Shown piece after piece: positions 39,509 to 53,723 of a DNA stretch of 64,000 nt. Every line of letters begins with the position of its first letter. Positions within the stretch are counted from its first letter, which is position 1. A program made the translations under genes and the position numbers. A model generated the notes under the pieces. That model searched no databases. It was not told where the DNA came from and worked only from the letters and a program-made list of their open reading frames with translations. The DNA is from Sphingobium sp. JS3065 (GTDB taxonomy: Bacteria; Pseudomonadota; Alphaproteobacteria; Sphingomonadales; Sphingomonadaceae), in contig NZ_CP102664.1 in the NCBI RefSeq assembly GCF_026427355.1, positions 2,979,501-3,043,500 on the forward strand, written 5' to 3'.

Positions 39509-39584
39509 GCCCGGGTAGCTCAGTTGGTAGAGCATGCGACTGAAAATCGCAGTGTCGGCGGTTCGACTCCGTCCCCGGGCACCA
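39509..39584 (+). tRNA. tRNA-Phe (GAA)
   Basis: The 76-base gene folds with acceptor GCCCGGG / CCCGGGC, D arm AGCTCAGTTGGTAGAGC, anticodon arm TGCGA-CTGAAAA-TCGCA (anticodon GAA) and T arm GGCGGTTCGACTCC, ending in an encoded ACCA. It is the probable insertion target for the element whose integrase remnant lies directly downstream on the opposite strand. Confidence 0.96.
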
Positions 39585-39589
39585 TTAAC

Positions 39590-39996
39590 ATACTGAAAAA
39601 TAACGATTTTATATTCGCCGAGTGAGTGGTGTTCATTCCCGTATGTAATTTTTTGCGCTGGGCGCGGTAAACAGCAAGGTCCGATGAAGTGATTTTGGAC
39701 AGGGGCTTGTTGCCGAGCGCGGGCGTAAGATAGAGTTCCAGCATTCGCTCTTTGCGGTCGATTGTTTTCCCGCCTTCTTCCTTGAGGCGCTTGATGTAGC
39801 CGTCCGCAGCTTCCTTGAACGCCATGGCTATCTTACGGCCTTTGGGCAGGTCCAGCCGTTCTTCCCTAGCCCTCGTCCTGAGGGTGGCAATCATGTCTTC
39901 TGCTTGCTGGCGGGTCACGCCGTCGCTTTCACGACCGACGACTCTGTGAATGCGGTTTTTTTTAGTCCCCTCGATGGAAGAGGTAGATTCCTCCAT
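39590..39996 (-). pseudogene. Truncated tyrosine integrase remnant next to tRNA-Phe
   Basis: The frame runs toward the tRNA and encodes about 135 residues of an integrase N-terminal part: AMAFKEAADGYIKRLKEEGG, then ERMLELYLTPALGNKPLSKI and TSSDLAVYRAQRKK are the SAM-like core-binding domain. After that the homology stops, and the open frame continues as antisense of tRNA-Phe to 39520. The catalytic domain with Arg, His and Tyr is gone. This is the scar of an older element at tRNA-Phe. Confidence 0.7.
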
Positions 39997-40201: not shown

Positions 40202-40250
40202 TTGGAGCGGGCGAAGGGATTCGAACCCTCGACCCCAACCTTGGCAAGGT
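40202..40250 (-). repeat. attL: duplicated 3' part of tRNA-Gly
   Basis: This 49-bp stretch (from TTGGAGCGGGCG to GGCAAGGT) is identical to 53648-53696, where it is the 3' half of an intact tRNA-Gly gene, from the CCA end back into the anticodon arm. Here the rest of the tRNA is missing, so this is the displaced copy at the far end of the island. Confidence 0.9.
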
Positions 40251-40367
40251 AGGCAGCTGATGTTACCTACGATCATTGGCGTTATTGCTGTTACCGGAAA
40301 CGGGATGTTTATAAAACCACGTTGTTTCTGGTGTTATATGGCAACCTAGCTATTTAACAGCGTTCCG

Positions 40368-40440
40368 GGTGGGGATCGAGTGGGGTAACAAATCTCTCGA
40401 TCTGGCTAGCATTTTGCGATCACCCCACTAAATTCCCCAC
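40368..40440. promoter_or_regulatory. Cluster of GTGGGG motifs, candidate integrase arm sites (left)
   Basis: GTGGGGA at 40369-40375, CGAGTGGGG at 40377-40385, and two inverted copies (CCCCAC at 40423-40428 and 40435-40440) lie between attL and the integrase gene. The same motif recurs four times near the right end. The 40251-40475 gap has no gene that I can support. Confidence 0.45.
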
Positions 40441-40475
40441 TAGCTATCTTGCGCCAGCAGGGGAAGGGAATTGCA

Positions 40476-41765
40476 ATGACGAGAGATGTTAAGCGTCCTG
40501 TTGGCCGTCCCAGCCGGTTCGCCAAGTTTGAGCAGTTTGAGGCTGGGCTTCCTCCGAAAATGGCGAAACGCCCCAGCTACTGCGACGGTATCGGCATATT
40601 CAAGGGAGCCAATGGCGCTACCGTCTGGGTCAAAATCAGGATGCCGCGTGGGGGCTTCTATAACGGAAGAACAATCACGGCTCGCGGCGCTGTCGAGCAT
40701 AAGCTGGGCAAGCGGTCATCGTGGGACTGGCAGCAACTCGTGATTGAGCGTGATCGCCTGCAAGGCTTGGCTGACCGTGGCGAGCCATTGGAAGCGGTAG
40801 AGGTCGACACTTTTGCGAAATATGCCTCAGAATGGCTTGAGCGGAAGAAGCCAACCATGAAGGGCTATGGGGTCACGAACGGGCATATCAAATCGGCCCT
40901 CGGCCCAGCTTTTGGCAAAAAGGCATTGAACGCCATTACCGTATCGGACGTCAATCGTTGGATAGGGAAGCAGAGTGCAAACCTGAAACCGGCCACCGTC
41001 CAGCGGCAATTAGCAACATTCAACGCCATCATGAACGACGCGGTTCGTAGCGGGATCATTGAGAAGAACCCCACGGATCGGACCGACCGGATTAAGGGAA
41101 TCGAGCCAAGGCAGCGTTTCGTGACCGATGACGAATGGGAAGGAATATTGAAAGCTGCGGACAAGATTGAGGCGGAGCAGGAGGAAAAGAAGGAGCAGAC
41201 GCCCCAGCAAATCCGGGGTTGGCTACGGCACTATGTCGCATGGGCATACAACTCAGGAATGCGGCGGGCCGAAATTCTCTGTCTGACTTGGGATCAGGTG
41301 AGGAAGGTGGATGAGGAGATCATCGTTATCGAGGTCAAGAATACCAAGACGAACAAACCACGGTTTGTGACATGCACGCAGGAGATGTTGGAGATTCTTG
41401 CCGCTCTCGAGAAACTGGAGCGGGCTGAGGGTGATAAGCGGCTGTTTCCCATTTCGATGACGACCTTGAAGCGATCTCTCACGCGCCTATGGAAGGAATC
41501 TGGCTTGGAAGACGTGCGATTGCATGATTTGCGCCGGAGCCACGCAACTATCCTCATGAAAAGGAACATAGACGCGCGAACGATTGCGGGACGGCTCGGA
41601 CATTCAGGCACCGCGATGCTGGCGAGGCATTATGCCGTCAACCTGGGGGATATTGAGGCAGCCCGAATTTTCGGAACTCCTCGCAGTCAGAATGGGAACA
41701 AGTCAGCGGATTCAGATGACTTAGGAGTGGACGGCGGCGCTTCTGAAGTTGCTGGTTTTGACTAG
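40476..41765 (+). CDS. int: Tyrosine-type site-specific integrase
   Basis: This 429-aa protein starts at MTRDVKRPVGRPS, preceded by GGGAAGGGA. It has an arm-binding N-terminal part, a SAM-like core-binding domain (residues 105-200), and the catalytic domain with the Arg of SGMRRAEIL near residue 263, Lys in the NTKT beta-hairpin, LHDLRRSHAT (His-x-x-Arg, near 350), LGHSG and the nucleophile Tyr in ARHYAV near 386. All catalytic residues are present. It most likely integrated this island into tRNA-Gly. Its position next to attL, distal to the tRNA, is somewhat unusual. Confidence 0.95.
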   Translation: MTRDVKRPVGRPSRFAKFEQFEAGLPPKMAKRPSYCDGIGIFKGANGATVWVKIRMPRGGFYNGRTITARGAVEHKLGKRSSWDWQQLVIERDRLQGLADRGEPLEAVEVDTFAKYASEWLERKKPTMKGYGVTNGHIKSALGPAFGKKALNAITVSDVNRWIGKQSANLKPATVQRQLATFNAIMNDAVRSGIIEKNPTDRTDRIKGIEPRQRFVTDDEWEGILKAADKIEAEQEEKKEQTPQQIRGWLRHYVAWAYNSGMRRAEILCLTWDQVRKVDEEIIVIEVKNTKTNKPRFVTCTQEMLEILAALEKLERAEGDKRLFPISMTTLKRSLTRLWKESGLEDVRLHDLRRSHATILMKRNIDARTIAGRLGHSGTAMLARHYAVNLGDIEAARIFGTPRSQNGNKSADSDDLGVDGGASEVAGFD

Positions 41766-41824
41766 TCTGGCAGAGGGGCGAGCGGAGGTGAAAAAGAAGA
41801 TATTGCCACCTGTGCAGCCGCCTA

Positions 41825-41853
41825 TTGATTTTTTGCGATTTTCGATGTATAAT
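41825..41853 (+). promoter_or_regulatory. Sigma-70-type promoter for the excisionase/polymerase-like genes
   Basis: TTGATT at 41825-41830 and a perfect TATAAT at 41848-41853 are spaced by 17 bases. The start point would lie near 41860, about 110 bases before the excisionase-like ATG. The leader contains the small hairpin CGAGA-AATTAA-TCTCG at 41921-41936. Confidence 0.65.
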
Positions 41854-41971
41854 GTTGGCATAGGAAGACAATCCTCAACCGTCTTCTTTATCAAGGACGT
41901 CTGAATCCCAAGGCCCGATACGAGAAATTAATCTCGGTCGGTGTTTCCTTGCTTTCAGCGTGATCATATCG

Positions 41972-42166
41972 ATGAATCCTGCTTTCTACAGCGATAAAGA
42001 TGTCGCTCGTCGCCTAAACCTGTCGCCCTCTTGGGTCCGTGGCCAGCGCTACAAGCGCAAACACAATCTCCCCCATATTTTCGATTTGGAGCCTCGCTAC
42101 ATAGGGTCGTGTGCCCGCTATGTCGCAGACGAGGTGGAGACCTTTATTGCTGCTCTGGTCGCTTGA
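41972..42166 (+). CDS. Excisionase/AlpA-like helix-turn-helix protein
   Basis: This 64-aa protein starts at MNPAFYSDKDVARRLNLSPS (a GTG 12 bases upstream is the alternative). The SDKDVARRLNLSPSWVRGQR helix-turn-helix and the ARYVADEVETFIAAL end match the MerR-like winged-helix fold of excisionases and AlpA regulators. It may direct excision of the island with the integrase. It ends 8 bp before the polymerase-like gene, so both are probably in one transcript. Confidence 0.75.
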   Translation: MNPAFYSDKDVARRLNLSPSWVRGQRYKRKHNLPHIFDLEPRYIGSCARYVADEVETFIAALVA

Positions 42167-42174
42167 GGCCAGCC

Positions 42175-43662
42175 ATGAAATTTAACCACGAACTACCTCA
42201 ACCGGGGTCGGGTTCTCTTGCCCGGCCAACCCTTGGCGAAATCGCTCAGGAATATTCCGTCGATCGTGCAAGCCTAGTGGACCAAATGATGCCCATCGCT
42301 TCCGGCACGGGCACCTTCTTTGATGAAAACATAGACCTGCGCGATCCCGAAGGCTCCGCCTTAACGGCTCGCATTCTCGAAATTTACGACGCGGTACGGC
42401 CAAGGCGACGGAAACGGGGACGTAAGGCACTGGCGGTTCGTATCCGAAAGCTTGTGGCAAATGGATTACGGGGCCACTTCTTTCGCCTTCCCCCTGCGGT
42501 CCTCTATTTCACCAAGGCCGATGCTGAACAGTATAAAGACAAACCGACTTGGATGAAGCATGGAGCGCTTGGCGATGTCGTAAAGGCCCTGTCCGATGCG
42601 GGATTGGTTAGGGCTATCAAGGGCAAAAAGATGCCTTGGAATTCGGATAAGAAGTCGTGGGCATCATCCTATTGGATCACCGATGATTTCATCCATATGG
42701 CATTGGATTACGGCATATCAACTGATTCAATCGAACGACGAATGCCAGTTAATGGGCTCGTTCAGCTTTTTGCTCCAAAGCCAGGACCCGAATTCAAGTG
42801 GTACAAAGGTGGATTGGTCTATGTCCGCAAAGGCGAGCGGATCAATTTTTCTCCAACCGCGGAAACGCAGGAATGGACCGACACATTGGAGGCGATCAAC
42901 GCCTTCTATCGACAGCAGGAAATTGCGCTTGGTTTGTCTGCCGCCGAGTTGGAGTTGTGGCTAGCTGATCGCAATGCGGAATCTGGAATGAAAGGAGCAC
43001 CTTACCGCCTGCCGGAGTTGTTTTCGACGGACATCTACAGAGTTTTCAACAATGGCGATGCGGACCATCCTAAATTCGATGAAGGAGGAAGGCTATTTGG
43101 CGGCTGGTGGATGAACATTCCCGAAAGTTTGCGACAAGCGATCACGATAAATGGGGAGCCAACGGTCGAAGTAGACTACAAGAATTGTCACCCACGCATG
43201 TTGTACCATGAAAGGGGGCTAGACGGTGACGGCGAACTCTATTCGATTTCCGAAATCTCGACCTATGAAGCGGCGACAGGAGTAAGGGCCGCTACATACC
43301 GTCCTTGCATCAAATGGCTGATGCAAATCTTGATAAACGGTAGAGGTAGACCGGAAGCTGTTGAACGGCCTGCGGATATGGTCTTTCCCCCGGATATCTC
43401 GATTACTAAGCTTGTAGCCTTGATCGAGGCACGGCACGAGCCGATTGCCAGTTCTTTCAGGACGGGGGCGGGCCTTCGATTGATGCGGTTGGAATCCGAT
43501 ATTGCCTTGGAGATAATATCAAGCGCGATGCATGAAGGCTTTATGGTTCTTTCGGTCCATGATTCCTTCATCACAACAAACGACAAACGAGATCGATTAA
43601 AAACGATGATGATTGATGCCTATGTCCGGAGATTGGAGAAGGAGCCAGCATTGAAAGGTTAA
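42175..43662 (+). CDS. Protein with family-A/T7-like polymerase palm motifs
   Basis: This 495-aa protein starts at MKFNHELPQPGS. I recognise no named family, but the C-terminal half carries three motifs in the order seen in family-A DNA polymerases and single-subunit RNA polymerases: motif A VEVDYKNCHPRML with Asp334, motif B R376-x3-K380-x7-N388-G, and motif C SVHDSF with His462-Asp463. The N-terminal half (1-190) is basic and may bind DNA (RPRRRKRGRKALAVRIRKL). No 3'-5' exonuclease motif is evident. It may be a replication, repair or priming polymerase of the island; template and product are unknown. Confidence 0.6.
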   Translation: MKFNHELPQPGSGSLARPTLGEIAQEYSVDRASLVDQMMPIASGTGTFFDENIDLRDPEGSALTARILEIYDAVRPRRRKRGRKALAVRIRKLVANGLRGHFFRLPPAVLYFTKADAEQYKDKPTWMKHGALGDVVKALSDAGLVRAIKGKKMPWNSDKKSWASSYWITDDFIHMALDYGISTDSIERRMPVNGLVQLFAPKPGPEFKWYKGGLVYVRKGERINFSPTAETQEWTDTLEAINAFYRQQEIALGLSAAELELWLADRNAESGMKGAPYRLPELFSTDIYRVFNNGDADHPKFDEGGRLFGGWWMNIPESLRQAITINGEPTVEVDYKNCHPRMLYHERGLDGDGELYSISEISTYEAATGVRAATYRPCIKWLMQILINGRGRPEAVERPADMVFPPDISITKLVALIEARHEPIASSFRTGAGLRLMRLESDIALEIISSAMHEGFMVLSVHDSFITTNDKRDRLKTMMIDAYVRRLEKEPALKG

Positions 43663-43785
43663 TGAAGGGAGAAGAGTAAGGAATATTAAACAATAACGAA
43701 CCTCTCGGGGAGGCCCCTATTCCATTTATAGGAACTCATAAGAACCGGAAGATCGGCCTCCCTCTTAACCTGTCAGGGATGATGG

Positions 43786-43806
43786 GCAAAACCGATAGAA
43801 ATCGGT
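43786..43806 (-). terminator. Hairpin terminator of the small membrane protein gene
   Basis: On the minus strand ACCGAT-TTCT-ATCGGT is followed by TTTTG, six bases after the stop codon of the gene at 43812-44099. On the + strand it also lies downstream of the polymerase-like gene. Confidence 0.55.
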
Positions 43807-43811
43807 GAAAC

Positions 43812-44099
43812 TCATCTTCTTGGGTCATGATCTTCCGTACGCGCCTCGTCGCGCTTTTCCTCCTTCAACGCTGCGATCGTTTCCTTGACGCAATCCGTGA
43901 CGTTATCGAATTCCTCCGCTTTATACGAACTCTCACAATCGGCCGTTGTTCGGACAGTCCAGTTGAGGGCGGCTTGCTCTTTTCGATCCCCTTCGATCAA
44001 ACCGCCAATCAGGTAGCCTAACCCAAGGAAGAGAAGAGAAATCCACATTATCGATTTGGAATTGTTCGAGGAAGCCTCGTGGATATCGCCTTCGTCCAT
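43812..44099 (-). CDS. Small single-pass membrane protein
   Basis: This 95-aa protein has an acidic N-terminus, one membrane helix (IMWISLLFLGLGYLIGGLI, residues 17-36) and a charged C-terminal part with two cysteines (DCESSYKAEEFDNVTDCV) that could form a disulphide if exported. No family is recognised. It is island cargo on the strand opposite to the integrase. Confidence 0.65.
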   Translation of the reverse strand: MDEGDIHEASSNNSKSIMWISLLFLGLGYLIGGLIEGDRKEQAALNWTVRTTADCESSYKAEEFDNVTDCVKETIAALKEEKRDEARTEDHDPRR

Positions 44100-44291
44100 G
44101 CCGTAGGAGCCTTTTCAACCTCAATCCTCAGAACGTTGGCTCAATGTGGCGCAGAAGCGCCTCAGAAGGCCGCTCAGCGTTAGTTTTGACTGATCGGACG
44201 TTTCCCCCGCCTGCCAGCCGCACATTGCACCTCCTGCGCCTCTAAACGGGCAAAGGGCAGCCTTCTGAAATTTGATTTGTGCAGAAAAATT

Positions 44292-45074
44292 TCACCGGAT
44301 GGGAAAAATGCCGGCGGGGATTTTGTGTTCATCAGTTCCAACTTGGACGATGATGCTCACAGGCACTTCTGCCGGTTTTTTGATCGAAGCAGGAATCTCA
44401 TAAGCGACGGTGCCACCAAAGCCTTCACCGGGCCTAACTGTGCTCTTCCGTATGAGGCCAGCTAAAGCAGCGCCCCCGGAGGCATCACGAGCACGGATTG
44501 CGGCATCGGTGGAGTTCTGTTGGCGTTGTGCGGCTTGCCGCTGCTGTTGAGCGAGCGCCGGATCATAGCCGGAGTACATGCCAGTGCCGTTATACTGCGT
44601 CCCGGTGCTGGTCGTGCCGCTGTACCCGAATGTTCCTGATGTATATCCGTTAGCCCCGCCAGCCGACAAGGCGCCGCCCATCGCTGCAAGAAAGCTTCTG
44701 CGTTTAATGTCCCTTCTCAGCCGCCCCTCTAACTCTTCATAAGGTATCATCGAAATCTGACTTCCACCGGAAAATGAAATCTTGATATCGTCAGGACCAA
44801 AGATCACATTATCCGCGAAGGTATGTTTGATATAGACGCGGAATGTGGATTGCTTATCAGGAAGGGTGTCTCTGATACTGACTATTCTGACTATGGAATT
44901 GGGCATAACATCATCAACATATTGATTGCCGTTCAGCCATTTCTCAGAATCTTTTTGCGTCGGCTTAGCTTGTATTTGATAGAAGGTTTTGGCCTCGCCA
45001 TTCCCAATAGGAAACAGTGCAACAGCAAGCAGAGCAGCGCTGATTGCGCACTTCGAGCCCATTTGCAAAAGCAT
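44292..45074 (-). CDS. Exported protein of unknown function
   Basis: This 260-aa protein starts at the ATG at 45074, which has AGGAGG 7 bases upstream. A signal peptide (CAISAALLAVALFPIGNGEA) leads. The middle is rich in Gly, Ser, Thr and Tyr (residues 135-180), then Gln-rich (AQQQRQAAQRQQN). The C-terminal part (GGTVAYEIPASIKKPAEVPV, SIIVQVGTDEHKIPAGIF) looks like a beta-sandwich domain. Probably periplasmic or surface-attached. The 44100-44291 gap downstream holds no gene that I can support. Confidence 0.7.
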   Translation of the reverse strand: MLLQMGSKCAISAALLAVALFPIGNGEAKTFYQIQAKPTQKDSEKWLNGNQYVDDVMPNSIVRIVSIRDTLPDKQSTFRVYIKHTFADNVIFGPDDIKISFSGGSQISMIPYEELEGRLRRDIKRRSFLAAMGGALSAGGANGYTSGTFGYSGTTSTGTQYNGTGMYSGYDPALAQQQRQAAQRQQNSTDAAIRARDASGGAALAGLIRKSTVRPGEGFGGTVAYEIPASIKKPAEVPVSIIVQVGTDEHKIPAGIFPIR

Positions 45075-45188
45075 GCCATTTCCTCCTATGTTACGGCTCC
45101 GTAAGATTGCTTGGAAAGGCCAAAAGGTCAAGAATGATATACAATAGACCGTGGACCAATAGTCCCCATTTGTCGCCTATGCTGCCGG

Positions 45189-45419
45189 ATGAACGAGAAG
45201 GCGATCCTTCACGAACTGGGCAACAGGATCAGGGCGCAACGAAAGAGCATCGGCCTGACGCAGGAGGCTCTTGCATTGGTGGCGGACGTTGATCGTTCCT
45301 ATTACGGCGCGGTTGAACGTGGCGAACGCAACGTGACTTTCACCGTTCTTTGCCGTTTATGCACAGCGCTCCGATGCGATGTAGCCCTGCTAACCAAAGG
45401 GCTTCCGCCAAGCGAATAA
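45189..45419 (+). CDS. XRE family transcriptional regulator
   Basis: This 76-aa protein is a stand-alone Cro/CI-type helix-turn-helix: LGNRIRAQRKSIGLTQEALA, then ADVDRSYYGAVERGERNVTF and LCRLCTALRCDVALL. Such small regulators often control defence or restriction genes; here it lies 91 bp upstream of the large TPR/PIN-like gene on the same strand and divergent from the exported protein gene. Regulation of the operon is inferred from position. Confidence 0.85.
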   Translation: MNEKAILHELGNRIRAQRKSIGLTQEALALVADVDRSYYGAVERGERNVTFTVLCRLCTALRCDVALLTKGLPPSE

Positions 45420-45510
45420 TTGCTTGTTCAACAACATGTCAGTCGCTGCTAATCGCAAAGGCATCGGCAAAACTTGAGCCGACCTACTAGATTAGCTTGA
45501 GAGGTGCTGT

Positions 45511-48500
45511 TTGGACCCTGTGTCAACTGGGGTAGCTGTAGCGAAGGCGGGAGTTTCAGCGGGCATAAAGCCTACGCTGGAGTTTTTCCGCACCCAATGG
45601 GTAAGACGCGGGGCGGCCTGTGCCGATCTAAGCACATTGGGCACCGCAGACAGAGAAATGGATGAAGCTCTTGCTGTCTTGAAGGGCGATGCGGAAAAGC
45701 TGCCTCAAACGATTTGGGTTAAGCTGAAAGGGTATTTCTCGGATCGCCCAGCGAGCTTTGACACAGAAAACGCCAGTCATTTCATTTCAGATGATCGCGT
45801 AGTTGAACTCGTCAAAGGCGCAACCCGCAAGACATTTGCGAACGAAGACATCTCGGAAGAATGCCAATCGGCACGCGTGCTTTATGCAAGTCTGTTTGAC
45901 GATGCAGAGCTTTATGAAGGCACAGCACCTTTTGGTGAGAGATTGCTGGAAGATGCGGTTGCCTTCACGTTCGCAACTCTGGTGGCCTATCTCACCCCCG
46001 GCGACAGAATTCTGCTTGAGACGCTGACTAGCCAGATTTCAGATGCCAAGACTGAGTTAGTGCAGAACATATCTGCCGGTTTTGCAGACTTAAGCAGCAA
46101 GATTGCGGAGATTTCCCAGAAAGGATTTGCATCCGATAGCCTAGACATACGCAGTCAGGTTGATGAAGTCGCTATCGACAATGCGATATTGGAGGAAACC
46201 AAGCGCTTCAAACGACGCCGATTCATTCAAGATGATAAGCTGATAGATGATGGGCGATCATTTGCAGGCCGCCTTCGGAAAGGCCTTAGCTTCGGCACGC
46301 CCACAATTAGGGCGGAAGCCTTCAGGGAACTGGCAATCATATTCGCCAGAGATGAATTGATTGATGAAGCTAGCGCTGCACTTGAAAGTGCCACTTCGAT
46401 TTGCGACATCGACGTGACGGCTGAGCGTGCCCGGCTGCTTATGTTGCAGAAGGACTTCGACTCAGCCCTAAAGCTGTTGCGCGGTAGAGTCGATCCCGCG
46501 TCGATCAGCATGTTCATCCAAGCTATATGTCTGCGCGATGGCAGCGAAAAGGCAATTGCATACTATACTGAGCATCATAGCGCGAACGAACTGACCGGAC
46601 ATGCTCTGCTTTGGCTTTCAATGCGAATGTCTGAGTTAGCGCAGCATACCGAAGCCAAAGACCTTCTGCATAGTGCCACTCCCGATCAGATAGATGAAAA
46701 TCCCCTTATCCTGTTCGAGCACGGGCGGCTCTGCATGGCGTTGGCGATGGCTCCCGATGTAGCTGCTCGTTTTCTAAAGACACACGGTTTAATCCCCCGA
46801 CCCGATGATTATCGAAATGATCAAACTGGCCAACAACTCCTTTCAGAAGCAATCTCAAATTTTCAAGAGTTGTTGAGATTATGTATCGATCTCAACGCAG
46901 ACGATTTGTTGGCGATTCTCGATCAGCAGATATTAGGCCTAAGACTCTCCCTTCGGGATGCCCCTGAGCGACAAAGTGCTGAGGCAGATTTGAGAGCTAG
47001 ACTTTCTGATCCCAATAGGGCCGTCGACATCGCCCCCCTAGCCCTACTTTACAATATCGATTTCGATTGGTCTGACCTCAAGGCGCAGCTCGCTCATGCT
47101 GAGAGTTTCGGTGGGCTGGATACAAGGCAACTTCGAACGGCCTTTGCATTCGTTATGCGAAGCAATGACCCTGCAAAGGTGGCGGAATTTGTCGGACGAC
47201 ATGAAGTTGGCCTCACTGCCTTCATGAAGACCGAGGAGGTTATCGGAATTCGGATCGAGGCACTGGCAAAATCCGATCGTGTCAATGAGGCTCTTGAGCT
47301 TTTGGAGCAAAGCCAGTCATCTGTTGAACCCGATTTTTATGACTTTTTGAAAGCGACGATAGACGAGCATCAAGGTGCTAATTCGATCTCTGCCAGACTG
47401 ACTCTCTTTGAACAAAGTGACAAAACGCATGATCTGGAAATCCTGATATCTTCCCTCTCCGCGAAGAAGGACTCGCGATTAGGGCACTTTCTTGCGTTGC
47501 TTTGGCAGAGGAAGCACCAGCTGGGCGATGCGGCGAAGGCTTGCGATGCTTTCCTGTGGAATGGCCAAACCGAGGAGCTAGATGAGTTTCTGGATACGTT
47601 GGCTGATTACATTCCCCAGCATCATCACCTAGGCATTCATCAGGCTTGGAAATTTCAAAGGCAGGGCGAATTGTCGAAAGCCTTGGCCGTATTGGACAGG
47701 CTTAACGCTGAAGGAGCCGACAATCACAACATCCGACAGCTTCGAGTGAGCATATTGCTCGAACTCGGGCGATGGAGCGAGCTTGAGCCGTTTTTACAAT
47801 CAGAGCTTTCCGCGAGAGAGAATCGCAGTTCAAGGACGTTGATGAGCGCGGCTCAGCTTGCAACCGCGTTGGAAAGCCCATCGGCGCTTCCGCTGGTAAG
47901 GGCAGCGCTGGATAAAGAGGATCATAGCCCGCAGCTATTCCTGGCTGCATATCATGCTGCACTAAACATGGGTGCTGAGGGCAATGCTGAGGTAAGCGGC
48001 TGGCTCAAGGCCGCCATTGACGGGTCCGAAGAAGATGGACCTGTTTGGACGAAGGATATCGACGACGCCGTTGAGCTAATGCGTGAAAGCCAAGAACGCG
48101 GTGAAAAGCTAAGCGCTATGATCATGGCGGCTGAGCTTCCACTTTCCTTAGCTGCGAAGCCTTTGAACGTGACATTGAGTTCGATTTATCTCGGGCAGTC
48201 TTGGGAAAATCGCCAGAATACAGACCCACGAAAACACAACCTCATTCCTGCCTATGCAGGAAATCGGCTTTTCTGGAAACTGCCCGATGATCCGGTCATT
48301 TCGTTTGATGTCACCTCATTGCTCACCCTTCAATCAATCGGGATTCTAGACAAGACACTCAGCGCGATTAGTCAGGTTGTTCTCCCCGCAGGCACGATGT
48401 CTCAGATTTTTCAGGACTACTCAGAGGCGCGACATACCCAGCCAAGCAGAGTCCAGCAGGCGCAAGAGATCAAAAGGCTTATTGCAGCACAAACACTAAC

Positions 48501-49833
48501 CATCGAAAAATGCGACCATGCGGGCGAGGAGTTGGAAGGTGAAGTCGGAGCAGAGTTTGCAAGGCTCTATCAGACTGCAATGAGAACAGATGGTTATGTA
48601 ATTGATACGGCCCCTCTACACCCGCCCGGCAAGCTCAAAGAAACCATCGATCCTAGTCGGTTTGCAGACAGGCTAGTGAGTCCCAAAGGGCTAATTGCGA
48701 AGCTGAATGAGACCGGCGATCTGAGCGACGCAGTGGCCAACGAGGCTTTAGCGGCGATCTTTGGCAGTGGTGAGGAATGGCCTAGCGAACCAAGTTTGGC
48801 ACCCGGTAAGCCTTTATATTTGTCCATGACCGCTTCGCATTATCTGGCGGATGCTGAAATCTTGCCCCGACTGAAGAGCGCGTTTGGGCAACTGGTTATC
48901 CTTCCTGACGTTGAGGAGTTGGCGAACCGTGAAATTGCAAACAGCACACGGGCTGCGGCGGTTCGAGATCAAATTGAGCAGCTAAGGGCTTCAGTGGCGG
49001 CGGCCATAGAAAATGGCACGATTAGGATCGGAAAACTTACTTCTGAGGATACTACGCAATCCGAGGACGAAGACACCCGGCGCGAGATAGGGCCGCTTTT
49101 CAATGCGCTCCAAGATATCAGCGGAGCAACCCTTTTTGTCTGCGACGACCGAGCACTGAACAAGAACGGCACATTCACTGACAGAGCGGAAACCTCTGTA
49201 AACACAGCTATTTCCCTTGACGTTTTGAGACACCTGGAGGCGAAAGGTGCGATCACTAACGCCGAGTTTCAACGCGCGATTGAGAAGTTATATGAGGGCG
49301 GCTTCGCGCTGGTGCCAGTGGACTTTCAAGAGTTGGTAAAGGCTGCTTGCGCCAGCAACTGGAATGTCGGTCCGAACGCAAAATTGCGCCAAATTCGAAA
49401 TTCGATCCACCTCCCGCTTATAAGAGGGCTGATAAAGCTGCCCGAAGAAAGGCACTGGTTTCGATCTTCCGTGCTTTCTATCGCTATCGCTATTCGCCAC
49501 GTGTGGTCGGAGATTGGGGAAGTCGATCATGCGATGCGGGCCGCGACTTATCTCTATGACATGATCCCCGATGTTCGCGCTTGGTCAGCTAAGGACAACT
49601 CCACTGATCGAGATGTGTGGGTGCAGGAAGTCACGCGCAGTTCGGTTTATATGTTCGGAAGTGCGTTCATGCTGCCCGAAAGCCATGTCGAGAAGTATCA
49701 AAACTGGTTCGATAATTACGTTGGCCCAAGAGAGGAAAGGCGTGATCCTGGAGTGATGGAGGCTGTAGCAAAGGCATTGTTCGAAAGCCTTTCCAAGCCC
49801 GTCGATTTGAGCGAGGTGGAAGCCGATGGGTAG
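45511..49833 (+). CDS. Large TPR-like protein with PIN-nuclease-like C-terminal region
   Basis: This 1440-aa protein starts with TTG (GAGAGGTG 7 bases upstream). Residues 1-220 are helical, with a possible coiled coil near 170-200. Residues 230-900 are an array of TPR-like helical hairpins (EAFRELAIIFARDELIDEAS, then ALKLLRGRVDPASI). From about 927 a PIN-like region appears: PVISFDVTSLLTLQ with Asp933, LGILDK-type GILDKTL, then a second similar stretch from 1100 (PLYLSMTASHYLADAEILPR) and VCDDRAL with Asp1212-Asp1213. The C-terminus is helical. It overlaps the next gene by 8 bp. A toxin or RNase effector role in defence is inference. Confidence 0.6.
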   Translation: MDPVSTGVAVAKAGVSAGIKPTLEFFRTQWVRRGAACADLSTLGTADREMDEALAVLKGDAEKLPQTIWVKLKGYFSDRPASFDTENASHFISDDRVVELVKGATRKTFANEDISEECQSARVLYASLFDDAELYEGTAPFGERLLEDAVAFTFATLVAYLTPGDRILLETLTSQISDAKTELVQNISAGFADLSSKIAEISQKGFASDSLDIRSQVDEVAIDNAILEETKRFKRRRFIQDDKLIDDGRSFAGRLRKGLSFGTPTIRAEAFRELAIIFARDELIDEASAALESATSICDIDVTAERARLLMLQKDFDSALKLLRGRVDPASISMFIQAICLRDGSEKAIAYYTEHHSANELTGHALLWLSMRMSELAQHTEAKDLLHSATPDQIDENPLILFEHGRLCMALAMAPDVAARFLKTHGLIPRPDDYRNDQTGQQLLSEAISNFQELLRLCIDLNADDLLAILDQQILGLRLSLRDAPERQSAEADLRARLSDPNRAVDIAPLALLYNIDFDWSDLKAQLAHAESFGGLDTRQLRTAFAFVMRSNDPAKVAEFVGRHEVGLTAFMKTEEVIGIRIEALAKSDRVNEALELLEQSQSSVEPDFYDFLKATIDEHQGANSISARLTLFEQSDKTHDLEILISSLSAKKDSRLGHFLALLWQRKHQLGDAAKACDAFLWNGQTEELDEFLDTLADYIPQHHHLGIHQAWKFQRQGELSKALAVLDRLNAEGADNHNIRQLRVSILLELGRWSELEPFLQSELSARENRSSRTLMSAAQLATALESPSALPLVRAALDKEDHSPQLFLAAYHAALNMGAEGNAEVSGWLKAAIDGSEEDGPVWTKDIDDAVELMRESQERGEKLSAMIMAAELPLSLAAKPLNVTLSSIYLGQSWENRQNTDPRKHNLIPAYAGNRLFWKLPDDPVISFDVTSLLTLQSIGILDKTLSAISQVVLPAGTMSQIFQDYSEARHTQPSRVQQAQEIKRLIAAQTLTIEKCDHAGEELEGEVGAEFARLYQTAMRTDGYVIDTAPLHPPGKLKETIDPSRFADRLVSPKGLIAKLNETGDLSDAVANEALAAIFGSGEEWPSEPSLAPGKPLYLSMTASHYLADAEILPRLKSAFGQLVILPDVEELANREIANSTRAAAVRDQIEQLRASVAAAIENGTIRIGKLTSEDTTQSEDEDTRREIGPLFNALQDISGATLFVCDDRALNKNGTFTDRAETSVNTAISLDVLRHLEAKGAITNAEFQRAIEKLYEGGFALVPVDFQELVKAACASNWNVGPNAKLRQIRNSIHLPLIRGLIKLPEERHWFRSSVLSIAIAIRHVWSEIGEVDHAMRAATYLYDMIPDVRAWSAKDNSTDRDVWVQEVTRSSVYMFGSAFMLPESHVEKYQNWFDNYVGPREERRDPGVMEAVAKALFESLSKPVDLSEVEADG

Positions 49834-50692
49834 CTCAATCGAACCTACCCAAGAGGAGATCACACGATACTTCCTCACGGAAACGCTTCAAAAGTTGCCG
49901 CAAAGCCTGTCCCAGCCGCTCCTCAGAATTCCCGATTTGCTAAACAAGATCGGCCTAGCGACGGACGACACTGTCCGCATATTCGACACCCGCGTTTTGC
50001 GGGATCACTTGCTTGAGACGCTTCAGGCAATCGCAGACGGCGAAACGCCAGACCTTTCCTCACATAAGGGGTTGAAGGTCAGTGATGCTGTCAGACTAAA
50101 TTCAGATGGCTCTGCGGAAATCATCAAAGGTAACAAGGGAGCGAGATTCTCAAACGTCGCATTGCTTGGGAAGGATAAGCCCGCACGGCAAAAGTGCCTA
50201 ACTCAGCTTTTCGCGGACGGAAGATTTGAAGCGCACCGAGAGGCCCACTGGCGAAGGATCATTAATAAAAGGCCAGTGACCCAAGCCGAGTATCTGGCCT
50301 TGGAAACGGAGCTTCAGAATCACGCTGAAGTCGATCTATCAGAAATCTCAAACGATCTTGTTGAGGAAAGCGCAACGATTGACATTCTGGCGCGGGCAAC
50401 GCCCGCTTACCTGATGGATTTAGTTGGCTTAACCAAACTTCCCGACAGCCTTCCCAATTTTCAAAAATCATGGCTGGATGAGGCCAAACAGCTTAAGGGG
50501 CGGCACCTTGCTCGCCGTTTGAGGCTGGCAGCGCCAATCGCCATTTTGGGAGGTAACCTTATCGGTGAGGCTGCACTAGCCTCTCTTATTCACGACGCTC
50601 GGTTTCGGGCCCGCTCTGGGCATTTGCTGCGGCTGGCTGTATTGCGCGGACGACCGGCATCGCTGGCGTTTGTTTCACCGCATTCGGATTGA
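49826..50692 (+). pseudogene. 5' fragment of the partner gene, cut near the IS1380 copy
   Basis: The frame starts at ATG 49826 inside the end of the 1440-aa gene and runs 288 residues. The sequence is mainly helical and charged (EAHREAHWRRIINKRPVTQAEYL is a striking block). It stops at TGA just 14 bp before the inverted repeat of the IS1380 element, and another long frame of similar style resumes beyond the IS. I take it as the N-terminal part of a broken gene; it could also be a complete short gene. No family is recognised. Confidence 0.5.
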
Positions 50693-50706
50693 TGGGCTTT
50701 TCGGGT

Positions 50707-52200
50707 TGAAGGGCTGGGCTCGGAGTTCTGCGGCGCTGCCGCATGGGCTACGTCGGCGCAGGCTTCAGCCGGAGAACGAGGGCGCGGAACAGGTCGGCAT
50801 CCGGACAGGCGGAAGCGAAGGCAATGCGGATGCGGCTAGCACTTTCTACGACGCGCGCAGCGACCTTGAGCAGCCGCAGGCGCAAGGTGGTAAACTCCGC
50901 GCTTGCCAGAGCAGCGGTCCTGGGCATCGCCTGCTGGATGCGCCATAGCAGCCAGTATGCGGCAGTGTGCAGTATCAGGCGCATCTGATTGGCATTGGCC
51001 GAGCGGCACGAGGTTCGGTCGCTGGCGAGCTGGGACTTGTGGCGCTTGATCAGGTTCTCGGCCTGACCACGCGCGCAGTAGAGCGTGTCGTAGATGTGCT
51101 CGGCCGATCCTGTTGCCAACGAGGTGACGACATAGCGGATGTCCATGCCCAGCGTGCTGGCCTCGATCCGTGCAACGACGCGACGCTGGCACTTCCAGGT
51201 CTTTGCCCCATAGCGGGTCTCGGCATAGTTGCGCAGGACGGGACACTGACGCTGGGCGCGCTTGACCGCGCAGGCATCGGCGACCGCAACAATGGCGGGA
51301 TCGGCGCGCAGCGCTGAATTGGTGGGCAGGCCGAACACGTAATCGACGCGGGCCGCATCGCAGTAGGCCATGACCTCGGGTCGACCATAGTGCCCGTCGC
51401 CGCGGATAGTGATGTGGGTATCGGGCCAATTACGGCGCAGGTGACGCACCAGGCGTCGGATGTGCCCCGCCGCCTCCTTTCCAGAAGGCGTCTTGCCTGT
51501 GCGCAGCAGCATGGCCACCGGCCTGCCGGTCGCGGTGTCGTAGATATGGATCGGTAGGAAGCAGCGCTCCCCATGATGCCCGTTCCAGAACGAGAGCTGT
51601 TGATAGCCATGCACGACGTCGCACGTGTCGTCGATATCCAGCGTGACCGCTGTCGGAGGGGCGGGATAGCTGGCGCAGTAGATGTCGATCATCGCGGCCA
51701 TCATGCTGGCCAGTTCGCGCGTAGTCGGTGCATTTTCCCACCGGCTCATCGTCGGTTGGCTGGCCAGCCCCGCGCCCGATTCCGGCAGCTTGCCGAGCGC
51801 CAGGCGGAAGCCTGGATCGTCGCGCAGAGCATCGAGATCATCGGCATCCTCATAGCCGCACGCAATCGCGAACACACGGGCACGCAGAATGTCATCCAGG
51901 CGATGGATCACCCGCGCTGGATCGCGCGGATCGGCAATACAAGCCGCCAGGCGCTGGCAAATCCCCATCGCGCGCTCGGCCTGTGCAAGCAGTAGAACAC
52001 CGCCATCCGAGGTAAGCCGGCCACCGTCGAACGCAGCTGTGATTTTCTTGCGGCCGACTGCTGGGAATCCAAATGAGCTTGCGATATCATCGTTCATGGC
52101 GGGTGTGGCCCGTGGCATTTTCTGCCCTGCGGCAGGTTCGGCTTAGACACCCAGTTCCTAATTCAGATCAGAGGCTTACGCCACTCCCGCCAACCCTTCA
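50707..52200. mobile_element. IS1380-family insertion sequence
   Basis: The element of about 1.5 kb holds one transposase gene. Candidate terminal inverted repeats are TGAAGGGCTGG at 50707-50717 and its counterpart CCAACCCTTCA at 52190-52200 (10 of 11 match). The true ends may lie a few bases outside. CTTT occurs at both outer flanks (50697-50700 and 52206-52209) and could be a target duplication. It splits the operon downstream of the TPR/PIN-like gene. Confidence 0.8.
50748..52118 (-). CDS. IS1380 family transposase
   Basis: This 456-aa DDE transposase has TLDIDDTCDVVHGYQQLSFWN (first Asp region with the IS1380-type HGxQxLSFWN block), IRGDGHYGRPEVMAYC (second Asp) and ARGQAENLIKRHK (Glu with the family spacing). 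The N-terminal FGFPAVGRKKITAAFDGG and SDGGVLLLAQAE are typical too. An alternative start is seven residues in (MNDDIASSFGF). It appears intact, so the copy may still be mobile. Its G+C is higher than that of the island around it. Confidence 0.93.
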   Translation of the reverse strand: MPRATPAMNDDIASSFGFPAVGRKKITAAFDGGRLTSDGGVLLLAQAERAMGICQRLAACIADPRDPARVIHRLDDILRARVFAIACGYEDADDLDALRDDPGFRLALGKLPESGAGLASQPTMSRWENAPTTRELASMMAAMIDIYCASYPAPPTAVTLDIDDTCDVVHGYQQLSFWNGHHGERCFLPIHIYDTATGRPVAMLLRTGKTPSGKEAAGHIRRLVRHLRRNWPDTHITIRGDGHYGRPEVMAYCDAARVDYVFGLPTNSALRADPAIVAVADACAVKRAQRQCPVLRNYAETRYGAKTWKCQRRVVARIEASTLGMDIRYVVTSLATGSAEHIYDTLYCARGQAENLIKRHKSQLASDRTSCRSANANQMRLILHTAAYWLLWRIQQAMPRTAALASAEFTTLRLRLLKVAARVVESASRIRIAFASACPDADLFRALVLRLKPAPT

Positions 52201-52219
52201 GGACACTTTTGGTGAATAA

Positions 52220-53392
52220 GGCGGGCTAGGCCTGCCTGCCAAAGAACGTTGGGCGCTGTTTGAATATCTAGTTTCCTCGCCTGACCCGCTCTCAGTTTTG
52301 GCAGCACTTGAAATTGCTTGTTGCAGCCATGCAAATGGCAAGGCCATCACCAGAGCCACAAAGGCCTTGTCGCTTCTTTGGAAGCCAGACAGCAAAATCT
52401 TCAGGCAAGGGGTCGGCGATGTTCACATCACCTATGTAGCTGCGACAGCTTGTTGGAGCAAAGAGCGCACCTTGCATGACTGGCCATTATATGCCCAGCG
52501 GTTAGCGAAGCTCCTTCACGCGGCCCACATTGCCCGCATTCTAGATCAGCACAATGTTCAGCGCCCGGACCTCCATGATAGGGTCTTAGGGGCATTTCAA
52601 TATCGAGCTAGGTTGTCGGACTATCGAGATTTGCAAATCGAGCCATACTGGCAAGCAATTTATCTCCAGGCGTCGACGCTCACTGCCGAAATTTTTCGGC
52701 GCTCGGTTGAGGCTGTGCAATCAATTCCAGACGACCTTAGACCCTCAAATTGGACCGATTTAGGGACGGGAATGATGAAATATCTGGATGAGAGGCAAGC
52801 CAATCTGATGCTTTGGGCGGCCACTCAGTTTTCGCCATTTCTAGAGAGCTGGAACGGCCTGACCGAACTCGACGAGGAGAATGTTGATAACCTATTTGAA
52901 ATGCTGAACGGTAGTGACCCCGCCGCCTGGTTAGACCGTATGTTGAAGCTGCAAGTTTCTTTCGAAATCCCGGAGTCGAGGCGCTGCGACTATCGCAACA
53001 GGGTAGCTGAGATTGTCGAATCTCTAAACGGAGAACAGTTCATCCATGCAGTCGAGATGAATTTGCACATTGCCGCAAGATGGCGCGACTCAGGCCTGTC
53101 AGATGATCTAATCAACATCGTTTTCAGGCGCTTCAAAGATAACGATATTGATTCCAAAAGCTCTCTTACCCGTCAAATCTTGTTGGCTTGCGCCTGCGAG
53201 GATTCGGAGGAAAAATGGCTAGAGAAGTTGCGTGTGATAACGACATCGTTTGCTAGAATTTATCCTGAAAGACAGAGGGTTGACGCCTATCGGGACTCAC
53301 TGATGATCATTGCGGGAATGTCCGAGAAATTAGCGCAAGCAGTTGCTCCCGCTTTGTCTATGGCAAGCCTGATCGACAATGAGGTGGGTTAA
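52220..53392 (+). pseudogene. 3' fragment of the partner gene beyond the IS1380 copy
   Basis: The frame is open from 52220, right after an in-frame TAA, and gives about 390 residues without a good start codon (the first usable one is a TTG at 52298). The product is helical (YAQRLAKLLHAAHIARILDQ, LDERQANLMLWAATQFSPF) and resembles the preceding fragment in base and codon style. Joining it to the left fragment does not restore one open frame, so some decay or deletion at the junction must be assumed. It may instead be the rest of a third gene. No family is recognised. Confidence 0.5.
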
Positions 53393-53547
53393 ATCTGAAT
53401 TTTTTAGCTAGCGCGAGAGGCGGATTTCGAAGCCAGAATGAAAGTGGGGAATTTACCCCTCCCCCCCACGGGGGGGCACCCCCTGCAACTGATCAACGAA
53501 AAATGGGCAGGCACCCCCACCCCGAAGGCAGCAGGCTACAAATCGCG

Positions 53548-53601
53548 CGAGTGGGGAAACTCGTGGGGATTTCAAAGCTGTCGAGTGGGGATATGGTGGG
53601 G
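53548..53601. promoter_or_regulatory. Cluster of GTGGGG motifs, candidate integrase arm sites (right)
   Basis: CGAGTGGGG at 53548-53556, CGTGGGGA at 53562-53569, TCGAGTGGGG at 53581-53590 and GTGGGG at 53596-53601 lie just inside the right att site. The same motif is clustered inside the left end, as expected for arm-type sites of a tyrosine integrase. The region 53393-53547 holds poly-C/poly-G runs and no gene. Confidence 0.45.
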
Positions 53602-53647
53602 CGTTTTCCGGAAGGGTGGCCTAATTGCCTCTAAACCCTTGAAAAAC

Positions 53648-53696
53648 TTGGAGCGGGCGAAGGGATTCGAACCCTCGACCCCAACCTTGGCAAGGT
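53648..53696 (-). repeat. attR: 3' part of the intact tRNA-Gly
   Basis: These 49 bases are identical to attL at 40202-40250. Here they are continuous with the rest of the tRNA-Gly gene. Confidence 0.9.
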
Positions 53697-53723
53697 TGTG
53701 CTCTACCCCTGAGCTACGCCCGC
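53649..53723 (-). tRNA. tRNA-Gly (GCC)
   Basis: Read on the minus strand the 75-base gene has acceptor GCGGGCG / CGCCCGC, D arm AGCTCAGGGGTAGAGC, anticodon stem around CCTTGCCAAGG (anticodon GCC), T arm GAGGGTTCGAATCCCTT and an encoded CCA. It remains whole because the incoming island supplied the 3' part. Confidence 0.96.

Follow-up and report, generated by a model that had tools for sequence, protein, structure and literature searches.

A probable two-gene variant of the predicted TPR-GreA/B-C-PIN conflict system, broken by an IS1380-family insertion, in a tRNA-Gly element of Sphingobium sp. JS3065

The closest described counterpart of the locus analyzed here is the TPR-GreA/B-C-PIN system, predicted in 2021 in eLife, reportedly by Kaur et al. 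In its available parts, that article outlines a predicted conflict system of TPR, GreA/B-C and PIN domains that acts on RNA polymerase (PMC8195603). Members carry an N-terminal EAD10 domain, replaced in others by one of 13 effectors, and are mostly standalone genes with few conserved neighbors and a C-terminal PIN, the order TPR, GreAB-C, PIN being usual and not defining. TPR-GreA/B-PIN systems are also named among anti-phage systems with sirtuins, in one mention within the accessible text of PMC9503650. No experiment on the TPR-GreA/B-C-PIN system was found in the literature searched, where it is a published prediction. By description, DS-3 and DS-5 of DefensePredictor are similar in being anti-phage PIN RNase systems that need their PIN residues; the two ends of DS-3 each hold part of its PIN, DS-5 depends on a second protein, and the word GreA is absent from the main text of that source as far as it was available (PMC13092281). 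The Pfam families PF24407 (HTH_upst_double_PIN) and PF24388 (Permuted_GreAB-C) model parts of the gene family treated here, and it is clear from their names that curators were already aware of the HTH, double PIN and permuted GreAB-C. Neither these two families nor PF20698 (PIN-TPR-GreABC) were found in the literature searched, most subscription journals lying outside it, and the same search yielded no statement that the operon is split or the active site shared.

The window, i.e., the whole stretch of 64,000 nucleotides that was analyzed, holds two overlapping genes which we propose, with a probability of about 0.72, to be a two-gene variant of this predicted conflict system that travels as the cargo of a tRNA-Gly integrative element (Table 1). 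Like the system in the available parts of PMC8195603, the pair and its relatives have GreAB-C and PIN in their constant core, with a match to the Pfam family PIN-TPR-GreABC; TPR-like helices are a probable third part of that core, and the N-terminus may be a variable effector, REase and PNPase domains occurring among the relatives found here too. Unlike that system, the pair consists of two overlapping genes, places the PIN before GreAB-C and includes an HTH plus a degenerate second PIN; because of the two overlapping genes and the PIN ahead of GreAB-C, we class it as a variant. The PIN is of the expected type (PF20698 at residues 1107-1218 of gene 1, 28.2 bits against a cut-off of 27.8, a margin of 0.4 bits) and GreA/B-C is present by homology only, while the gene is not standalone and the usual domain order is absent. 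A sequence-only reading of this DNA had suggested an undescribed immune module; the immune part is supported by genomic context, and the word undescribed has to be dropped, as the core is that of the TPR-GreA/B-C-PIN prediction.

Table 1. Features of the tRNA-Gly element and its cargo, in window coordinates (acid counts come from 24 aligned rows, several of them closely related to one another)
Feature	Coordinates	Strand	Description
attL	40202..40250		49-bp copy of the 3' part of tRNA-Gly; perfect direct repeat
Tyrosine integrase	40449..41765	+	PF00589, 3e-22; phrog_1, 4e-54
Excisionase-like HTH protein	41960..42166	+	68 aa; phrog_66, 9.5e-4; 66% identity in L014, 61% in L040
Element gene with polymerase-palm-like motifs	42031..43662	+	phrog_4756, 2.2e-34 (a phrog without assigned function)
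XRE-type regulator	45189..45419	+	HTH_3, 2.2e-13; PADLOC 'Control_protein', 4.3e-15; 82% identity in L014, 86% in L040
Gene 1	45511..49833	+	1440-aa ORF, TTG start; PF24407 and PF20698 matches
D933	48307..48309	+	presumed PIN motif-1 acid; D or E in 24/24 rows
D1212-D1213	49144..49149	+	presumed PIN motif-3 acids; D or E in 23/24 (D1212) and 24/24 (D1213) rows
D1237	49219..49221	+	presumed PIN motif-4 acid; D or E in 24/24 rows
Gene 2, 5' piece	49826..50579	+	some 251 residues lie ahead of the IS; 74% identity to residues 1-252 of the L007 partner
IS1380-family insertion in gene 2	50580..52225	-	transposase 50748-52118; NF033539, 430.7 bits, 4.6e-129
Gene 2, 3' piece	52226..53392	+	helical solenoid; from 52298 on, 73% identity over 363 residues to the L007 partner
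attR	53648..53696		3' part of tRNA-Gly (gcc); tRNA gene 53649-53723, minus strand

Gene 1 is, as had been read from the sequence, a TTG-started frame of 1440 aa whose end overlaps the start of gene 2 by 8 bp. Among the best 7994 candidates scored it has at least 26 homologs, its own protein included, of which 23 cover at least 93% of the query, so that it is no chance ORF; the closest named homologs belong to sphingomonads. The protein comprises an N-terminal domain without assigned kind, TPR/PPR-like helices, an HTH (residues 850-919, PF24407 at 68 bits against a Pfam cut-off of 27), a double-PIN region (about 927-1265) and a helical C-terminus. Among the aligned homologs, HTH_upst_double_PIN was matched at E ≤ 0.01 in 19 of 19 and PIN-TPR-GreABC in 17 of 19. 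The TPR-like helices that had been proposed for gene 1 correspond in the window protein to sub-threshold Pfam matches (TPR_7, 0.096; TPR_14, 0.10), and TPR_2 exceeds the cut-off in the relative L022 (3.7e-7). Residues 581-636 match designed PPR proteins in a search of PDB chain sequences (6een, 1.3e-7). As PPR proteins bind RNA, these helices could by analogy provide an RNA-sensing surface.

No Pfam family matched residues 1-250 of gene 1. The N-termini of relatives differ and include Mrr_cat_2 (P0026), PNP_UDP_1 (L022) and DUF676 (L025), which agrees with the effector swapping that the available parts of PMC8195603 describe. In Rhodopseudomonas (L012, 8590-12946) the relative lies in two overlapping ORFs, an N-terminal one that resembles the Mrr-bearing P0026 and another that is the PIN part; it is perhaps another broken copy. 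In L023 (561-1706) an ORF that by eye is PNPase-like stands directly upstream of the fused gene, and in L022 the PNPase is itself fused.

Asp933 and Asp1212-Asp1213, previously put forward as PIN acids, are D or E in 23 to 24 of the 24 aligned rows, several of which are closely related, and D1237, which had not been named, is equally conserved. We take these residues to occupy PIN motif positions 1, 3 and 4. A model of residues 840-1440 (m7ddb34fd3b6f, pLDDT 86.6) contains twice a strand-and-helix order that we equate with that of PIN, with strands near 929, 955, 996 and 1029 and again near 1102, 1128, 1171 and 1208; D933 follows the first strand and D1212-D1213 follow strand 1208-1210. Comparison of this model with PDB structures, the check suggested for the PIN fold, gave nothing below E 0.13 in Foldseek and mostly helical rows in VIA-align, with 1w8i at rank 20, and no Foldseek match to the PDB reached E ≤ 0.001 for either the gene 1 model or the partner model. 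Sequence searches against PDB chains matched no GreA chain and no PIN chain. The part in between is absent from two natural relatives, L022 and L023, which keep all four acids, and these single-PIN proteins suggest that a degenerate PIN interrupts a single active site.

Gene 2 is broken, as had been claimed. The IS1380-family element lies between its N and C pieces, which remain as ORFs at 49826-50692 and 52298-53392, and its ends at 50580 and 52225 carry imperfect terminal repeats with CTAG at each side, as read from the sequence. The interruption has probably disabled this copy as a system. The 5' piece contains the alpha/beta domain, by homology a permuted GreAB-C, together with the beginning of the helical solenoid. 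In relatives the intact second gene encodes about 640 aa; the L007 partner is a helical protein of 638 aa, modeled (pLDDT 85.1) with an alpha/beta domain at 49-108 and helices from there to the end. PF24388 exceeds its cut-off of 27 in the partners of L024 (39.6 bits, residues 49-99) and L025 (31.7 bits, residues 46-98), about where the L007 model has its alpha/beta domain, and is weak in those of L009 (0.054) and L013 (0.005). It matched neither partner piece in the window, nor the partners of L007, L008, L011 and L012. A search of the own genome with PF24388 gave no match, and neither did its control; among 385 class genomes there was one match, below the cut-off. The GreAB-C assignment of the window partner therefore comes from homology to the L024 and L025 partners, which a sphingomonad partner profile matches at 3.2e-12 and 4.6e-30, respectively, the GreA-type fold of PF24388 being Pfam's naming. 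Helical solenoids fill the Foldseek and VIA-align lists for the partner model, so that the alpha/beta domain at 49-108 was barely probed by structure search.

A partner homolog stands directly downstream of gene 1 in all nine split loci examined (L007-L013 and the plasmids L024 and L025), among which L010 and L011 are near-copies and L013 is ended by a contig end. In seven further loci (L014, L015, L016, L021, L022, L023 and L026) the longest ORF, of 1928-2155 aa, spans the whole length as a fused form. A partner profile built without the fused proteins matches the C-terminal part of L014 (2.8e-56), L021 (6.2e-24) and L015 (6.4e-24) and gave no match in the other four, three of which have PF24388 below the cut-off (L016, 0.0019; L022, 0.17; L026, 0.0015). 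The partner profile was built without L012 and L013, and the PIN profile without L016, L022 and L023, to keep these as test cases; L014, L015 and L021 are inside the PIN profile, and their own PIN scores there are thus not independent. A 21-row tree, in which P0012, P0017, P0024 and P0026 are labeled split by length alone, needs three changes between split and fused forms, two of them forced by well-supported branches; its long branches leave the placing of L021, L016 and L022 unsure. Entry H3 was left out because it shares organism, record length and coordinates with H2, and L046 (H5), viewed through its gene table, enters no count.

If the pair is indeed a two-gene variant of the TPR-GreA/B-C-PIN system, gene 1 would supply the nuclease and the sensor arm, formed by the variable N-terminal domain, the TPR/PPR-like helices, the HTH and the PIN region, and gene 2 would supply a GreAB-C subunit in which a small alpha/beta domain sits upon a long helical solenoid. 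The two proteins may form one complex, with the GreAB-C subunit docking on RNA polymerase, as predicted in the available text of PMC8195603. Judging by domains and context, infection would then lead the PIN to cut RNA, and either phage growth or the cell would be stopped. More tentatively, and with somewhat less than even confidence, we speculate that the "double PIN" amounts to a single catalytic PIN in two halves (about 927-969 with D933, and 1150-1265 with D1212, D1213 and D1237) that enclose a degenerate PIN of about 180 residues, that this nuclease is licensed by a separately encoded GreAB-C subunit which ties it to RNA polymerase, and that a giant immune machine made of one protein has here become a pair of subunits, the tree containing at least two switches between the fused and the split state. 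PADLOC-DB 2.0.0 matched none of its families to gene 1 or to either partner piece.

The pair was also said to be borne on an island, which is confirmed by a 13.5-kb element (40202-53696) bounded by perfect 49-bp direct repeats in tRNA-Gly, with a GC content of 0.532 within against 0.656 and 0.666 outside; it begins well before position 45511, where the sequence-only reading had started. The core of the element consists of the integrase, the excisionase, the palm-like gene and the XRE regulator. The same core occurs in L014, where the fused PIN gene has the opposite orientation, the cargo adjoins tRNA-Val, and none of the tried 25-base pieces of the window tRNA-Gly was found, and in the sister element L040, which has a 48-bp repeat at the same tRNA-Gly. 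The integrase of L040 is 71% identical over 396 aa; that of L014, truncated where its contig stops, is 68% identical over 174 aa. The XRE gene does lie directly upstream of gene 1, as had been noted, and it belongs to the element: it follows the core both in L014, with inverted cargo, and in L040, with other cargo. As operon regulator of the pair it was accordingly rejected. Its likeness to R-M controller proteins (PADLOC 'Control_protein') still stands.

Relatives of gene 1, which is single copy in its own genome, occur in 6 of 298 family genomes and 4 of 398 in a phylum draw (own genome included in both) and in five plasmid records, among them Methylophaga (L024) and Agrobacterium (L025). 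None was found in phage records or among the 52 and 9 pattern stretches of viral contigs. A tblastn search of plasmids with the partner gave no match, though L024 and L025 have divergent partners. Enrichment of such pairs next to known defense genes had been proposed as a check; the pairing held at every split locus examined, and, as a plain count of neighbors picked by eye, restriction, Hma or HsdR-like genes adjoin 4 of the 11 loci scanned. These neighbors are a type I MTase, a specificity subunit and PDC-S15 (L015), HmaB and HmaC (L021), type I specificity and restriction subunits (L022) and an HSDR_N_2 protein (L025). A clear defense system was not seen beside the other seven: one of two tested neighbors in L016 has a weak PDC-S09 match, and those of L007, L008, L010, L011, L014 and L024 are recombinases, a ThiF protein, an ArdC-like protein or proteins without clear match. 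Near intact pairs, an integrase stands beside tRNA-Lys in L008 (18695-20137) and a serine recombinase beside tRNA-Thr in L007 (18521-20455). It seems that elements of more than one kind carry the pair, and one attachment site for all relatives is ruled out by the differing tRNAs beside cargo or recombinases (Val in L014, Lys in L008, Thr in L007).

Being cargo of an integrative element, the pair might instead serve that element, through exclusion of rivals or stabilization, and not the host. This overlaps with the defense claim, as defense carried by elements often protects the host too, and we consider it improbable, given that homologs occur in unrelated contexts (R-M genes, conjugative and other plasmids, other integrases, tRNAs) and that the sister element L040 has a different operon in the cargo slot. 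A toxin-antitoxin module, in which a PIN RNase toxin under control of the upstream XRE is neutralized by its partner, would account for the conserved PIN acids, for an XRE directly upstream that resembles R-M controller proteins, and for the overlap of the two genes, such coupling being typical of toxin-antitoxin pairs. VapBC in particular has its PIN acids at the same motif positions (1, 3 and 4). Here, however, in place of a small toxin/antitoxin pair there is a putative nuclease of 1440 aa that has a helical scaffold, the XRE goes with the element core and not with the pair, and the intact partner is a helical protein of 638 aa that is elsewhere part of one fused ORF. A strict toxin should also not tolerate a broken partner, and gene 1 is still open. 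We consider a toxin-antitoxin module quite unlikely, and the pair falls outside the VapBC-like type II class.

GreAB-C and PIN domains occur in housekeeping proteins too, and the pair could on that ground be a cellular factor for RNA processing or transcription quality with no role in defense. Such a role is very unlikely for genes found in just 6 of 298 family genomes, with varying effector-type N-terminal domains and with a partner whose disruption here the host has survived. The two-gene variant of the TPR-GreA/B-C-PIN system, our preferred reading, would if true represent a bacterial immune nuclease acting at the transcribing polymerase. In its split form each half could be removed alone, and the GreAB-C subunit could be used as bait for RNA polymerase.

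With its fixed core and its exchangeable cargo, the element also offers a lead toward more defense genes. The cargo slot of L040 (5763-11772) holds a five-gene operon encoding an AAA protein (weak match), a PLD-like protein, an unmatched protein, a HerA-like protein and an ABC-ATPase, and is a candidate defense operon. The palm-like gene travels with the integrase and excisionase in L014 and L040 and has relatives in 13 of 298 family genomes, its own included. Its motifs, which resemble those of single-subunit polymerase palms, were read by eye (Pfam RNA_pol reaches only 0.12), and its true start is probably later than 42031. Six of its loci were fetched, with L044 and L045 left out of the protein scan: one protein of L041 gave no match, type I methyltransferase genes lie nearby in L042 and L043, and L043 also has an ATPase of a PADLOC candidate family. 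Within the element, a 279-aa ORF at 44292-45131 (minus strand) runs opposite to its neighbors and has no clear family match in Pfam, PADLOC or PHROG. Just outside, an integrase N-terminal fragment at 39520-39996 (minus strand) overlaps tRNA-Phe (39509-39584) and is perhaps the remnant of another, neighboring element.
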